64,000 bases of DNA. It comes from a virus. This document shows, in pieces, positions 8,135 to 58,859 of this stretch. The notes below the pieces were generated by a model. The model was given only the letters and a program-made list of their open reading frames with translations. It made no database searches and was not told the origin of the DNA. How positions within the stretch are numbered: the stretch's first letter is position 1; each line of letters begins with the position of its first letter. A program made the position numbers and the translations under genes. The stretch covers positions 124,001 through 188,000 of IMG/VR virus record IMGVR_UViG_3300025121_000282; one strand, 5' to 3'.

Positions 8135-8674
8135 ATGAAGCGCAAGCTTGCAGCAGAGGGTGGGGTTAAAGACGAGTGGAGAACACCACCCGCTCTCTTT
8201 GAATTTTGCGACCAGTTTATGGGTTGGATGTGTGGAATAAACATCAGCCTTGATGCTGCAGCCAACGACAACAACACAAAGTTTTCTGCAAATTTTATCA
8301 CTAAGGAACAGGACTCCCTAGTCCAGAACTGGAGTGATTTTTGCCCTAAAAATAAGGGCATATTCATAAACCCTCCGTTTAGCAGAGTTTATGACTTTGT
8401 AGGCAAGATTAAGAGGTCCTCAGAACAAGGCTTGTCTACAGTAGCCATCCTGCCAGGGACGTGGTGTGTCCGGTGGATGCATCAGTTCGTGTTCGGGTCT
8501 GCTAGTCACATTTTGGTCCCCAACAAACGTCTCGCGTACCTGGACTGTAATGGGGACAAACAGAATTCTCCCAATTTTGAAACCATCATAGTACTTTGGG
8601 ACGCACTCAGCCATCCCAACACTCCCAGGGTGAGACCTCTCATCGTCAAACCAGACGGAACGTATTCTATCTAG
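8135..8674 (+). CDS. Phage DNA N6-adenine methyltransferase (Dam-type)
   Basis: A 179-aa protein of the phage adenine-methylase family (PF05869 type). Visible marks: N-terminal DEWRTPPALFEF, the SAM-side segment ISLDAAANDNNTKF, the catalytic FINPPF (motif IV, N-P-P-F), and IIVLWD near the end. It would methylate adenine N6 in DNA using SAM, commonly to shield phage DNA from restriction. Length matches the family (about 170-190). No cognate endonuclease is adjacent. Confidence 0.85.
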   Translation: MKRKLAAEGGVKDEWRTPPALFEFCDQFMGWMCGINISLDAAANDNNTKFSANFITKEQDSLVQNWSDFCPKNKGIFINPPFSRVYDFVGKIKRSSEQGLSTVAILPGTWCVRWMHQFVFGSASHILVPNKRLAYLDCNGDKQNSPNFETIIVLWDALSHPNTPRVRPLIVKPDGTYSI

Positions 8675-10699: not shown

Positions 10700-10980
10700 C
10701 ACCTTGGAGACTGTGCGATAAAACATGGTGGGTAGCCTACTGCGTGGGGCTTGTTGTAGGCTCAGCCTACGCGCAATACGTGGCACGAGAAGTACTTAAC
10801 GTCACCGTATTTTTCCTGGTTGTTGTGGTGTGCCTTGTTATAATCAAGAGGCTCTTTTTCAAATATGTACTTAAGCTACGTAAACACCCTATCCGCGATT
10901 GGTCCAGTAGCAGATTTTGCCACATTTGTGGTGCAGACGCCGATAAGAGAGAGCCTTGCAATACAAGTTTGCACTCCTAG
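10696..10980 (+). CDS. Membrane protein with C-terminal CHIC motif
   Basis: 94 aa, ATGA overlap. Hydrophobic segments at residues 11-30 (WVAYCVGLVVGSAYAQYVA) and 36-55 (VTVFFLVVVVCLVIIKR), then FCHICG and a further Cys. Same plan as the 10192 product: two helices plus Cys tail. Confidence 0.6.
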   Translation: MTPWRLCDKTWWVAYCVGLVVGSAYAQYVAREVLNVTVFFLVVVVCLVIIKRLFFKYVLKLRKHPIRDWSSSRFCHICGADADKREPCNTSLHS

Positions 10981-10994
10981 TTGTATACTTTTGT

Positions 10995-11492
10995 ATGAAA
11001 CTAGACGATGCAATTCTGGAAGTGCTCAAGCCGCTAGACCGCCCCTCCGAAGTTCCTGAAATATGTAGGTCTTTGAAGAGATACGGGCTAGACTCGTCGT
11101 GGAAAGAAATATCCAACACACTATTTGACTTGAAATCTAGAAATCTAGCGGACTCGGTTTCTATAGGCCCCGGAAAATTACAGTGGGTTTATAAAAACGA
11201 CACTGGTGGTGTCCCTTCTACAAATCAGGACCAAAGAATCAAGGAACTGGAAACTCGTTGTGACCAGTTGTTGACTGCACTTTGCCTTGTAGTGGAGACT
11301 TTTGGCGACCCAAGTGTTCTACTAGAACTGCAAGATAAGGTGGCTGGCTTGGAGTTTATAGCCGAAGAGCCACAATCCACAGACCAATCAGAATTTATAG
11401 TTGATGAGCCTGTCCCTCCGACTGTGACACCCCGGCCAGAACCCAAACTTGTAGACACTCAGTGGGACCCTGACGACCCTATACCTTTCTAA
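10995..11492 (+). CDS. Winged-helix protein with SSB-like C-terminal tail
   Basis: A 165-aa protein, start taken at ATG 10995. Residues 1-60 look like a winged helix (KLDDAILEVLKPLDRP, helices, then LADSVSIGPGKLQWVYK as wing). Residues 70-110 form a coiled coil (DQRIKELETRCDQLLTALC). A Pro/Glu/Val linker leads to the terminal WDPDDPIPF. That ending closely matches the acidic tip of bacterial SSB (DDDIPF), which binds repair and replication partners. No OB fold is present, so it is not SSB itself. Confidence 0.7.
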   Translation: MKLDDAILEVLKPLDRPSEVPEICRSLKRYGLDSSWKEISNTLFDLKSRNLADSVSIGPGKLQWVYKNDTGGVPSTNQDQRIKELETRCDQLLTALCLVVETFGDPSVLLELQDKVAGLEFIAEEPQSTDQSEFIVDEPVPPTVTPRPEPKLVDTQWDPDDPIPF

Positions 11493-11500
11493 TATCACGA

Positions 11501-11526
11501 TTAACCGTTTCAAGTCGTAGTAGAAT
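11501..11526 (+). promoter_or_regulatory. Phage promoter motif, leaderless type
   Basis: TTAACC-N16-GAAT with ATG exactly 6 bases after GAAT (11533), so the start codon would be at or next to the transcription start. Confidence 0.6.
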
Positions 11527-11532
11527 TATAAC

Positions 11533-12126
11533 ATGATCAAGGTATACTCAATCCCTAAGACAGGAGTGTGGGCCGCCGTATCCGGAGGTGTGGACTCTAT
11601 GGCTATGCTTTCTTTTCTTACGACCGGCAAGAAAAGAATCGAGGGCGTAGTCAACATCGGGCATGGTACGGAATACGGTAAGCGAGCCACCGAATTGGTG
11701 GAGAAGTACTGTGCAGAAAAAGAAGTCCCATTCCACTTTGCCCAGGTTACGGGCTCTAACGAGATGGAATGGAGGGATGCCCGCAGGGAAATTTATTCCA
11801 AGTACTCGTGGGTGGCTACTGCGCACCACTTGGACGATGTGATTGAATGGTGGTTGATGACCTCGCTTCGAGGGTCTCCCAAGCTGACTCCCGTAAGGTC
11901 TGGGAACGTGGTCCACCCATTTCTCAGAACTCCGAAGTCTGAACTTGCCCATTGGTGTGAACGGCACCATGTGCCCTACCTGGACGATCCCACCAATGTT
12001 GGTAATTTTAACGAACGGGCCAAAATCCGGGTTCTAATGCCCAGCTTGCTGAACATTTATCCAGGAATTCACACTTCTATCGGCAATTTGCTTGAACTTA
12101 GGGGAGATGCACCACCCAATGAGTAA
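11533..12126 (+). CDS. TilS-like PP-loop ATPase (tRNA(Ile)-lysidine synthase N-domain)
   Basis: 197 aa. PP-loop SGGVDSM at residues 17-23; ATAHHLDDVIEWWLM matches the TilS 'AHHxDDxxE' segment; VVHPFLRTPKSEL matches 'RPLL...k.ei'; and YLDDPTNVGN-FNERAKIRVLMPSL matches the family's 'D.sN....RN.iR...lP'. Full TilS makes lysidine at C34 of tRNA(Ile2) and is about 430 aa; this lacks the C-terminal tRNA-binding domains. It could be a minimal tRNA modifier or a repurposed adenylating enzyme. Confidence 0.75.
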   Translation: MIKVYSIPKTGVWAAVSGGVDSMAMLSFLTTGKKRIEGVVNIGHGTEYGKRATELVEKYCAEKEVPFHFAQVTGSNEMEWRDARREIYSKYSWVATAHHLDDVIEWWLMTSLRGSPKLTPVRSGNVVHPFLRTPKSELAHWCERHHVPYLDDPTNVGNFNERAKIRVLMPSLLNIYPGIHTSIGNLLELRGDAPPNE

Positions 12127-23306: not shown

Positions 23307-24137
23307 ATGTCTGCAGGAGCCCATTTCCTTGCAATGGACCTTAAGCAGTTGCTTGCAACTCTTACCATCAAGGTGGGTAAGAAAATTCATGGTCACACAT
23401 CTCGGGACCACATTCTTTTGGAATGCGGTTATTCTCATGTGCGAATTGATCGTAGTGGCAGTATTCAAGCTAGGAAGGAAGGGGAAGGGGAAAGGAATAA
23501 CCTTGACCGGGTCTGTCCAGATGTGGATTTTGAAACTGCTTACGTCTGGATGGTAAGTATTCTCATTGCTGGTCGTACGGTAGAGGTTGGCCAGGGTGTT
23601 GATTACAAGTCTATTTGCGGGTGGTGGCCCAGAAGCCATGTCAACATGTCACCCAAAGAACTGGTAAGGCAAGTTGTAGACCGTGGGTGGGACCTAAATC
23701 CTGATTATCAACGAGGGCATGTGTGGACCCCAAGCCACTCTGAAAGATTCATGGGTCATTTTCTTGAGGGCAATATGGTTCCGCCCTTTTATGTGCAGCG
23801 GTGGGACTCAGAAAAGAACGCACCCCCACACCTTAAGGCTGATTACTGGGACCACGCCGAAGTGGTGGATGGCCAGCAGCGCATTCGGGCCATCACAGCT
23901 TGGCTCGATGGGAGTATCCTGGCTGAACTGAGCGACGGGCGTCGGATTGCGTACAGGGACTTTGACGAGGTGGAACGGCGATGCCTTCCTGTGTTTAGCA
24001 TTTACTTCTTTGACATTTCTCGTGCAGAGCGTCTCAAGTTCTATCTTAAACTAAACAGAGCAGGTGTTTACCACACAGACGCCGAAATCGACAAAGTCAG
24101 AAAGTTGTTGGAAAATGAAACAACAACGCGGGAATAG
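23307..24137 (+). CDS. DUF262/ParB-like domain protein with extra N-domain
   Basis: 276 aa. From residue ~112 it follows the DUF262 (GmrSD N-domain, ParB/sulfiredoxin-fold) plan: LVRQVVDRGWDLNPDYQRGH-VWT, FYVQRWDSE, then AEVVDGQQRIRAITAWLDG (the conserved DGQQR) and FYLKLNRAGVYHTDAEI. DGQQR proteins typically hydrolyse nucleotides or nick DNA; phage versions are usually stand-alone. Residues 1-110 form a separate unknown domain. No GmrD-like HNH domain follows. Confidence 0.75.
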   Translation: MSAGAHFLAMDLKQLLATLTIKVGKKIHGHTSRDHILLECGYSHVRIDRSGSIQARKEGEGERNNLDRVCPDVDFETAYVWMVSILIAGRTVEVGQGVDYKSICGWWPRSHVNMSPKELVRQVVDRGWDLNPDYQRGHVWTPSHSERFMGHFLEGNMVPPFYVQRWDSEKNAPPHLKADYWDHAEVVDGQQRIRAITAWLDGSILAELSDGRRIAYRDFDEVERRCLPVFSIYFFDISRAERLKFYLKLNRAGVYHTDAEIDKVRKLLENETTTRE

Positions 24138-26091: not shown

Positions 26092-26240
26092 CTCCCTGAA
26101 ATAATCACTTATTTCAGTTGATTTTTAAGCCTGGGGGACTCTAAGCTCCCCAGGAGCCGTAAGGTTCTGGATCTGATGTTTGTGGCGCCGACGAAGTCGG
26201 CGTCTTGACCGTATCCGCAGGATACGCATCTAAATCTTTC
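26092..26240 (-). ncRNA. Candidate omegaRNA (TnpB guide RNA scaffold)
   Basis: The last 150 bases of tnpB hold stems at 26210-26226 (GTATCC core), 26186-26202 (CGCCGAC), 26130-26154 (CCTGGGG) and 26096-26117 (CTGAAATAA), all perfect. TnpB guide RNAs come from this overlap with the right end. The guide would be the flanking sequence leftward of about 26092. Confidence 0.5.
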
Positions 26241-27200
26241 GCCTTTACGGTTCTTTTCCGACTCCTTTAAACACTTTGGACAAATACGGGAAGTATAAGC
26301 AGCTAAAACAGGCACCACTAAAACACGGTTTTCTTGGGCCTTATGTTTTAAGCGCTCATGGACTCTGCGGACCGTCCAAGGAGCCATAGCTTTTCGGAAA
26401 CCTTTATTTCTTTTAGGGTTCTTCCCTTTCTTAATCCCTTTGAGGTCCTCTATTCCGAGAACTGAAATTTGATTCCATGGAATTTTGTTTAAAATTCTCC
26501 CAATATAATTTTCCCGTTCTTTCTGGGCTCTACGGAAACCATTAGAATCAGGAACACGTCTTCTGAGTTTATCTCTTATTTGACGGAATTCGGTACCTAA
26601 ATAAGTGGGCTTAGAACCATCAGACAAAGTAAGAAGTTTGATCACTCCTGAGTCAGCACCCACAGTGGTTTCAGGGTTTGGAACCTTGAGGTCTTGATCA
26701 GGTAAGTCAACCCACACAGCCAAAGAATTTTCAGAAATCTGAATTCCCTTCCCCATTTTAGCACCAGGGACAGCCAACCATTTATTAAGAACCCTTGTTC
26801 TTCTGGTCGGGATTATAATTCGCTCGCCTTTGGCGAGCGACGATAGTTTGATTACTAAATCGAATGACTTTTCACCATTTTCAATGCCCACAACCTTTGC
26901 ATCAAAAACACAATCACCAGTGAAATGAGGTAGACTAAAGCTTTGTCCCGTCTCCGCGGCTGCTTTGCAGCCGCTTGACAAGATCGACAGAGCCTGTCTA
27001 AGTGCTATCGATTTATAGCGTTCTGTGAGTCTCGTGTTTGTTAAACGAGCTAAGGTTTCTTTGTCCAAGCCTCCCGGCTCGGACCACAAGGATTTCAAAT
27101 AAAAGTTTACACCAGCCCGATAAGCTTGAAGAAGATTGGAAATCTTCTGCTTCTTTGAAGCAGTGATAAAATCCAAGCTTACTATGGCTGCTCGTCTCAT
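26109..27200 (-). CDS. tnpB: RNA-guided endonuclease TnpB (IS605 OrfB)
   Basis: 363 aa. RuvC-like nuclease, apparently intact: GADSGVIKLLTLSDG (D183), VLGIEDLKGI (E251), zinc ribbon CPKC (307-310) with CVSC (325-328), and GQDADFVGATNI (D333/D335). TnpB uses an omegaRNA to cut DNA beside a short TAM and helps retain the element. ATG 27200 overlaps the upstream gene's stop as ATGA. Several codons form perfect hairpins with 3-base loops, unusual for a coding sequence. Confidence 0.9.
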   Translation of the reverse strand: MRRAAIVSLDFITASKKQKISNLLQAYRAGVNFYLKSLWSEPGGLDKETLARLTNTRLTERYKSIALRQALSILSSGCKAAAETGQSFSLPHFTGDCVFDAKVVGIENGEKSFDLVIKLSSLAKGERIIIPTRRTRVLNKWLAVPGAKMGKGIQISENSLAVWVDLPDQDLKVPNPETTVGADSGVIKLLTLSDGSKPTYLGTEFRQIRDKLRRRVPDSNGFRRAQKERENYIGRILNKIPWNQISVLGIEDLKGIKKGKNPKRNKGFRKAMAPWTVRRVHERLKHKAQENRVLVVPVLAAYTSRICPKCLKESEKNRKGERFRCVSCGYGQDADFVGATNIRSRTLRLLGSLESPRLKNQLK

Positions 27201-56221: not shown

Positions 56222-57745
56222 CTATTCCCACTCGATGGTGGCAGGTGGCTTGTGGGAAATGTCATAGACTACCCGACAGATGCCTGGAACCTCGTTGGTG
56301 ATTCTGGTCGAAATCTTGTCCAGGACGTCATAGCCCATCCTGGACCAGTTGGCGGTCATCCCGTCTAAAGAGTCGCAAATTCTGACGACAACAGTGTCAC
56401 CATAGGTCCGCTCGTCCCCCACTACTCCTACCGATTTTACTGGTGCATACACAGCAAAATACTGCCAAAATTTCTTACTGGCATTGGTGGAGTACTCAGC
56501 CTCAACTACTTCAGAAACTATGTGGTTTGCTTTACGTGCAGCTGAGACCCGCTGCGGCGTAACCTCCCCTACAATTCTTATGGCCAAACCCGGGCCGGGA
56601 AAAGGCTGTCTCCAGAGCATCTTGTCGGGGATGCCGAGTTCTTTCCCCAACTCTCGGACCTCGTCCTTGAACATGAACCTAAGCGGCTCACACACCTTTA
56701 AACCAAGTTCTTTGGGTAAACCCCCCACGTTGTGATGACTCTTGATCACACTGGATGGGCCCTTGGTTGACATACTTTCGATAACATCGGGGTATAAAGT
56801 CCCCTGGGCTAAGAAGTCAAACTTCTCCCTACCCACTGCTGTCATGAATGCATTAATAAACTCGCGCCCAATAATCTTGCGTTTGGTTTCGGGGTCGGTT
56901 ACCCCCCTCAATGCATATAGGAATTGTTCTGAGGCGTCGTAGCACTTCACCCCAATCCCGTACCCGTCAAACATGTTCATGGTGTCTTCTACTTCTTCTT
57001 GCCTGAGAAGACCAGTATCCACAAACACACAAGTCAACCTGTCACCTATGGCATCATGAAGGAGTTTGGCAACTACGGTTGAATCCACACCTCCGGAAAC
57101 ACCACAGAGCACCTTGCTTGTGGGGCCAAGCTGTTCCTGAAGCTCTATCTGGATATTTGATAGTATGGTGTACGAGTTTTTCCTTAACGGAATCCCAGCA
57201 ATTTTTAAAAAGTTGGATAGTATTTTCCCACCAATTGCTGTATGGGAGACTTCTGGGTGAAACTGGACACCATAAAAATGAGCGTCGTCATTTGAGATAG
57301 CAGCAAATAGACCAGATTCTGACAGAGCATCAACTCTGAAACCGTGCGGTACTTGGTCCACTGAAACACCGTGGGACACCCACACTTCGAATTCGCCTTC
57401 AATGCCCCCCAATAATTTTGATTTCTGGAGTGCCTTAATAGAGGCCCGCCCGTACTCACCGTCACCCGTGGTACAAACAGACCCGCCCAAAGCAGTGGTT
57501 AAAAGCTGCATACCATAACAGATTCCAAGTATAGGCGCACCAAAATTTAGAATGCACGGATCTAGCGTAGGTGCTCCAGAGTCGGTGACGACAGCAGGGC
57601 CACCACTCAAGATTATCGCACTTGGGAACAAATCGTCAGTTACTTTATCCCATGGTAAAATTTTGTTTGCAGCACCCATCTCCAGTAGTCTTCTGGAGAT
57701 AAGTTGGGTGTACTGGCTGCCGTAGTCTACTATCAAAATTTCCAT
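56222..57745 (-). CDS. guaA: GMP synthase (glutamine-hydrolysing)
   Basis: 507 aa, full length (E. coli 525). Converts XMP, ATP and glutamine to GMP. Glutamine amidotransferase triad: C76 in ICYGMQ, H163 and E165 in FHPEVSHT. ATP-PPase SGGVDS at 217-222. The C-terminal dimerisation domain ends with the family's invariant PPATIEWE. Second gene of a guaB-guaA operon, 7 bases after guaB. Codon use is AT-richer than the long plus-strand genes, which fits acquisition from a cellular source (inference). Confidence 0.97.
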   Translation of the reverse strand: MEILIVDYGSQYTQLISRRLLEMGAANKILPWDKVTDDLFPSAIILSGGPAVVTDSGAPTLDPCILNFGAPILGICYGMQLLTTALGGSVCTTGDGEYGRASIKALQKSKLLGGIEGEFEVWVSHGVSVDQVPHGFRVDALSESGLFAAISNDDAHFYGVQFHPEVSHTAIGGKILSNFLKIAGIPLRKNSYTILSNIQIELQEQLGPTSKVLCGVSGGVDSTVVAKLLHDAIGDRLTCVFVDTGLLRQEEVEDTMNMFDGYGIGVKCYDASEQFLYALRGVTDPETKRKIIGREFINAFMTAVGREKFDFLAQGTLYPDVIESMSTKGPSSVIKSHHNVGGLPKELGLKVCEPLRFMFKDEVRELGKELGIPDKMLWRQPFPGPGLAIRIVGEVTPQRVSAARKANHIVSEVVEAEYSTNASKKFWQYFAVYAPVKSVGVVGDERTYGDTVVVRICDSLDGMTANWSRMGYDVLDKISTRITNEVPGICRVVYDISHKPPATIEWE

Positions 57746-57752
57746 TTTGTAA

Positions 57753-58859
57753 TTAGCCCTTGTAATTTGTGGTGGGTGTAACAGAAAGCATGTCGTGGAC
57801 GTGAGATTCAGACCTACCAGCTTGGGTTACGGTTGTGAACCGCATCCCACCTCTTAGCCGATTGATAGTTTTAGCGCCCACGTATCCCATGCCCGATTTG
57901 AGCCCACCAACTAACTGAAATAATACTTGAGAAACAGGACCCGTGTATGGGACCAACCCCTCTACACCTTCCGGGACCAGTTTGTCTTGGGCTACCCCGT
58001 CTTGAGAGTACCGGTCGCTGCTACCACTTTCCATAGCACCCACGGAACCCATACCTCTGTATTTCTTATAGTATTTTCCGTCATTAATACCTATTACTCT
58101 CTCTCCAGGGGCCTCGTCGCATCCAGCCAAAATGTTGCCAATCATGACAGCATGAGCACCTGCTGCTATGGCTTTGGTTATGTCTCCGGAGTACCGGATT
58201 CCACCATCAGCTATAATTGACAACCCATCTTCGGAGTCACAGACCGTGGCACAGTCAGAAATAGCCTGAAGTTGTGGAACCCCCGCACCAGAAACCACCC
58301 GGGTGGTACAGATGGAACCGCCACCTATGCCCACTTTCACTACATTTGCGCCAGCTTTATAGAGTCTGTAGGTGCCGTTTGCGTCTGTCACGTTACCGGC
58401 TATAATGGTAATGTCGGCGTCCAGTCCCCTCACATACTCCACCATTGAAACCACATTTTTGCTATTTCCGTGGGCGGAATCTATGACTATGGCGTCGGTT
58501 CTGGCCTCTACGAGTGCCCTGGCTCTAAATCTATTTGGCAAAGAGACACCGATAGCAGCTGCAGTTCTAGTGCCCCATTCTTCTCTGCTTTCTTTGATAG
58601 TGGTACACTGCTTTTCTATGGACATGTTTTTATGTAGTACACCCAAACCGCCACATTTCCACATTTCTCTCAGCATAGCTTCGTCCGTAACAGTGTCCAT
58701 AGCTGAACTTAAAATAGGTATAGACAGTCTTATGCTTCCGATGGTTGTGCCAGTGTCCGCTTCGTTTGGTGTGAATTCGGCATATGCAGGACACAAAAGA
58801 ACGTCATCGTAGGTGAGCCCGTGTGTGCGCTCTAACTCAAATCGGGTAAAATTCTTCAT
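57753..58859 (-). CDS. guaB: IMP dehydrogenase lacking CBS domains
   Basis: 368 aa. Oxidises IMP to XMP with NAD+, feeding GuaA. GIGGGSICTTRVVSGAGVPQ holds the catalytic C184; ADGGIRYSGD, the flap GMGSVGAMESGSSDRYSQ, and KLVPEGVEGLVPYTG are IMPDH-specific (not GMP reductase). The usual Bateman/CBS insertion is replaced by a short link at residues ~80-97, so guanine-nucleotide allosteric control should be absent. AAAGG lies before ATG 58859; TATAAT on the minus strand at 58893-58898 is a possible -10 box. Confidence 0.95.
   Translation of the reverse strand: MKNFTRFELERTHGLTYDDVLLCPAYAEFTPNEADTGTTIGSIRLSIPILSSAMDTVTDEAMLREMWKCGGLGVLHKNMSIEKQCTTIKESREEWGTRTAAAIGVSLPNRFRARALVEARTDAIVIDSAHGNSKNVVSMVEYVRGLDADITIIAGNVTDANGTYRLYKAGANVVKVGIGGGSICTTRVVSGAGVPQLQAISDCATVCDSEDGLSIIADGGIRYSGDITKAIAAGAHAVMIGNILAGCDEAPGERVIGINDGKYYKKYRGMGSVGAMESGSSDRYSQDGVAQDKLVPEGVEGLVPYTGPVSQVLFQLVGGLKSGMGYVGAKTINRLRGGMRFTTVTQAGRSESHVHDMLSVTPTTNYKG

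Follow-up and report, generated by a model that had tools for sequence, protein, structure and literature searches.

The C-terminal tip of Escherichia coli SSB (MDFDDDIPF) serves to recruit no fewer than 17 proteins; the last two residues, proline and phenylalanine, are the most conserved (PMC10018359). In phage HK620, stimulation of the recombinase Sak4, also a phage protein, requires the six-residue SSB tip NDYPPF (PMC5928155). No report of SSB tips or tip mimicry on non-SSB phage proteins was found in the open-licence literature. Here, a tip of this type was analyzed on P0001, an open reading frame (ORF) in a 64,000-nucleotide stretch of viral DNA (the window; bases 124001–188000 of a 314,886-base virus record), together with its recurrence on other phage proteins. 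The occurrence of SSB-like tips across unrelated phage proteins is a more useful result than P0001 itself.

The record was identified as a huge tailed phage because genes for a major head protein (phrog_2522), a DnaB-like helicase, a primase-like protein and a DNA polymerase were read at 36–56 kb. The head protein shares 65% identity with that of an uncultured 485-kb phage (LR745208), 42% with that of Tunturiibacter phage Tunturi_5 and 38% with that of Bacillus phage G; as judged from sequence, the source phage is distantly related to Bacillus phage G. Just past the major head protein gene, a 957-residue ORF (L132:1317-4190) with LAGLIDADG homing-endonuclease and HNH/methyltransferase-like matches is possibly an intein or a fused selfish element. 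Within the window, a TnpB-like RNA-guided endonuclease gene (26109–27200, −), which scored under the curated cut-off, possibly represents a mobile element carried by the phage. A full-length, phage-encoded GMP synthase (guaA; 654.8 bits, above the curated cut-off) adjoins an IMP dehydrogenase-like gene, and the two form a guanine nucleotide synthesis pair at 56222–57745 (−) and 57753–58859 (−). At 8135–8674 (+) the window encodes a Dam-type N6-adenine methyltransferase, and at 23307–24137 (+) a protein with a GmrSD N-terminal domain.

Gene and predicted architecture of P0001

P0001 is a 165-residue ORF at 10995–11492 (+), starting with ATG at 10995 and ending with TAA at 11490–11492. Its C-terminal end reads ...KLVDTQWDPDDPIPF, that is, WDPDDPIPF followed by the stop codon (tip at 11463–11489, +; core DDPIPF at 11472–11489), in agreement with the SSB-like acidic tip reported in the initial annotation. 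The five other frames over this interval are interrupted by 3–15 stops, and only the P0001 frame is open; it also has the best codon-usage score of the six, yet a modest one that lies under the average of the neighboring genes. The start is not certain, because no Shine–Dalgarno sequence was found ahead of the ATG and an alternative in-frame TTG at 10956, 39 bases upstream, would add 13 residues. Immediately 5′ of the ATG, the sequence TTGTATACTTTTG (10981–10993, +) includes a −10-like TATACT and is a possible promoter of a leaderless P0001 message; as a repeated promoter it was rejected, since the motif shows no enrichment in the window. A different promoter-like motif, GAATTATA, is present in 7 of 61 upstream regions, where 0.2 would be expected, for example at 11524, 23288, 50423 and 55580, and is in places preceded by TTGAC about 17 bases upstream. 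P0001 is surrounded by many small ORFs, and a gene for a tRNA(Ile)-lysidine synthetase of the TilS N-terminal type (11533–12126, +) lies directly downstream.

A single-sequence AlphaFold2 model of P0001, of low confidence (mean pLDDT 51.6), places helices at residues 3–14, 17–29, 33–48, 76–102 and 107–117 and strands at 52–58 and 61–66. Residues 1–70 (10995–11204, +), with three helices and a β hairpin, form a probable, though unproven, winged helix on the basis of their H-H-H-E-E order, which is common to winged-helix DNA-binding proteins. The order of elements in the model, at a pLDDT of about 50, is that of the winged helix named in the initial annotation; no sequence match to a Pfam, PHROG or PDB winged-helix family was obtained. 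Residues 76–117 (11220–11345, +) are predicted to be helical and are a probable coiled coil or pair of dimerization helices; among PDB sequences, a weak match solely to designed helical-repeat proteins was obtained. No structure is predicted after residue 117, where an acidic, proline-rich linker (residues 118–156; 11346–11462, +) leads to the tip. The final 45 residues contain 11 Asp/Glu, 2 Lys/Arg and 10 Pro (net charge −9), and the net charge over residues 1–72 is 0. No match to P0001 was obtained in Pfam or PHROG at E values up to 10, nor in Foldseek with the low-confidence model at E ≤ 0.001; searches of PDB sequences gave nothing meaningful, and the matches to designed helical proteins and spherulin were judged spurious.

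The tip of P0001 compared with chance

The core DDPIPF and the E. coli SSB tip, DDDIPF, differ at a single position. From the amino-acid frequencies of the window's genes, about 0.0004 tails of the form DDx[IL]PF are expected per 450-gene genome, and 0.003 of the looser form [DE][DE]x[ILVM]PF, figures that overstate the significance somewhat because the tip was picked after the sequence had been read. A pattern search of the whole 314,886-base record found P0001 to be the sole ORF with such a tail; a second pattern match was dropped because TGG, not a stop codon, follows it. By these estimates, the likeness of the tip to the SSB C-terminus exceeds chance.

No homologue of P0001 was found in viral contigs, INPHARED phages, bacterial genomes, plasmids, its own record or five related phage records, and a synteny search through two downstream genes (the TilS-like gene and ORF 12497) found no relatives. 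An SSB-like tail was likewise not seen in three large related phages and two fragments. Since the three large relatives have no such tail, this group of phages has no conserved requirement for it, and as far as can be seen the P0001 tip is private to this phage.

A chance resemblance, in which a fast-evolving orphan accessory protein with another role carries an acidic tail rich in proline whose PF ending is a coincidence, would account for the lack of homologues and of the tail in related phages, and the feature was chosen after many sequences had been scanned. We nevertheless consider this explanation unlikely given the expectation per genome and the uniqueness of the tail in the record. Moreover, an SSB-like linker precedes the tip, and the WDP ahead of its core is aromatic/acidic like the MDF of E. 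coli SSB.

The same tip on other viral proteins

DDPIPF followed by a stop ends at least 120 stretches in viral contigs, compared with 6 for the scrambled control DDPFPI. Among the matches listed, the DDPIPF-ending ORFs fall into about 22 groups without detectable mutual similarity, few of which are SSBs: one group is the OB-fold SSB PF00436 and one the SSB phrog_18154. The other groups include Cas4-domain exonucleases (phrog_1990), DUF669, DUF6511, a protein weakly resembling nucleoside deoxyribosyltransferase and several unknowns; a primase-helicase, a primase-like protein and an intein-bearing helicase were recognized by eye, from reading the sequences rather than by library comparison. Some single-member groups may be chance matches, the control having given 6. 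The uncharacterized DUF6511 (L083 and relatives) is the largest tip-bearing group among the matches listed, with 23 ORFs, and the alignment to its Pfam profile extends to the last profile position in a stretch ending in DDPIPF.

For the Cas4-like exonucleases, homologues were sampled with the query tails removed, to avoid selecting on the tail. SSB-like tips were present on 17 of 80 sampled phage proteins, or 10 of 61 clusters at 90% identity, where the closest matches are biased toward tips because the query profile was made from tip-bearing members; tips were also present on matches of about 33–35% identity (L171, L174 and L196). Their spellings include DDEIPF, NDDIPF, EEPIPF and DDPLPF. In the comparison set, made up of mechanical ORFs of at least 60 residues, some of which are not genes, only 1 tail among roughly 1,540 from other ORFs of the retrieved viral loci had an SSB-like tip.

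We give about an even chance to the proposal that the SSB tip is a portable docking tag, gained by many unrelated phage proteins, which plugs them into the host SSB network while bypassing SSB. Its carriers would be exonucleases, DUF669, DUF6511, probable primases and helicases, and the putative winged-helix orphan P0001. If the tip works as it does in SSB, a six-residue tag on their own proteins would give phages access to the host repair and restart machinery. A C-terminal D-D-x-I/L-P-F would then be a simple sequence rule for recognizing phage proteins that take over or block the partners of SSB, and a first role would be suggested for several uncharacterized families.

Proposed role of P0001 and comparison with known systems

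Tails of this kind are found on many phage proteins unrelated to one another, so that of P0001 is probably a borrowed docking tag. Our best explanation, held with slightly less than even confidence, is that P0001 is a phage DNA-binding adaptor with an SSB-type docking peptide that brings SSB-interacting proteins to phage DNA. We infer that the N-terminal winged helix would bind DNA and that the helical segment would dimerize the protein, while the flexible acidic linker would present WDPDDPIPF. By analogy with SSB, this tip would enter the pocket for the SSB C-terminus on a partner. Candidate partners are host PriA, RecO, RecQ, DnaG, DNA polymerase III chi and exonuclease I, or else a phage protein bearing a pocket of this type. 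P0001 would thereby bring the partner to phage DNA in the manner of SSB but with no OB fold; given the predicted DNA-binding head, recruitment is the simplest presumed direction of effect, though it too falls a little short of an even prospect. A docking function, as suggested in the initial annotation, is plausible and partly supported by the above-chance tip and by the SSB-like tips on non-SSB proteins that appear to act in phage DNA metabolism. Points against the adaptor are the lack of homologues that would show conservation, the low confidence of the fold model, the proline at the third tip position and the missing tail in three large related phages.

The same binding chemistry would serve a decoy or inhibitor, whose free tip fills the pocket for SSB on host exonuclease I, RecQ/RecJ, RecO or PriA. 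In isolation, peptides of the SSB tail compete with SSB for partner proteins, which speaks for such a decoy, as does the nature of P0001 as a small accessory-type protein among many small ORFs. However, a decoy has no need of a DNA-binding domain, a monovalent one would require high expression because SSB is abundant, and the tip-bearing phage proteins of recognizable identity are mostly proteins of replication or recombination, not small decoys. We therefore regard a decoy as improbable, and equally doubtful its presumed effect, namely that these proteins are kept off SSB-coated phage DNA or that host repair and restart are blocked.

The tails of T7 gp2.5 and T4 gp32 autoinhibit DNA binding and contact their own polymerase or helicase. 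That P0001 is likewise a non-OB phage ssDNA-binding protein, with an acidic tail that autoinhibits DNA binding and contacts the phage polymerase or helicase, would fit the charge of this tail, the phage's own DNA polymerase, DnaB-like helicase and primase-like protein, and the absence of a PF00436 SSB from the record in a search with a working control, but is quite improbable, as P0001 lies about 80–90 kb from the replication genes, its residues 1–72 are uncharged overall, its predicted N-terminus is not an OB fold, and the searches that found no gp32, Enc34-type or DUF669 protein in the record had no positive control and so do not establish that another SSB is absent.

Compared with bacterial SSB (PF00436), the adaptor proposed here has in common the disordered linker and the acidic tip ending in D-D-x-[IL]-P-F. 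The third tip residue is proline in P0001 and Asp or Glu in most SSBs, and DDPIPF also occurs on true phage SSBs. The OB-fold ssDNA-binding domain is missing from P0001, which has no Pfam or PHROG match and is modeled as helical with one hairpin and a predicted helical or winged-helix N-terminus. P0001 is therefore not a member of the SSB family and at most works like an SSB tail. With HK620 SSB it shares being a phage protein with an SSB-type six-residue tip, whereas the HK620 protein is itself an SSB and its partner a phage recombinase. The phrog_1990 Cas4-domain exonucleases have a nuclease fold, are widely conserved and are unrelated in sequence to P0001, in which no nuclease core with a cysteine cluster was found by PHROG comparison and which gave no meaningful alignment to the tip-bearing members beyond the tip; like P0001, they are non-SSB phage proteins with a DDPIPF-type C-terminus.
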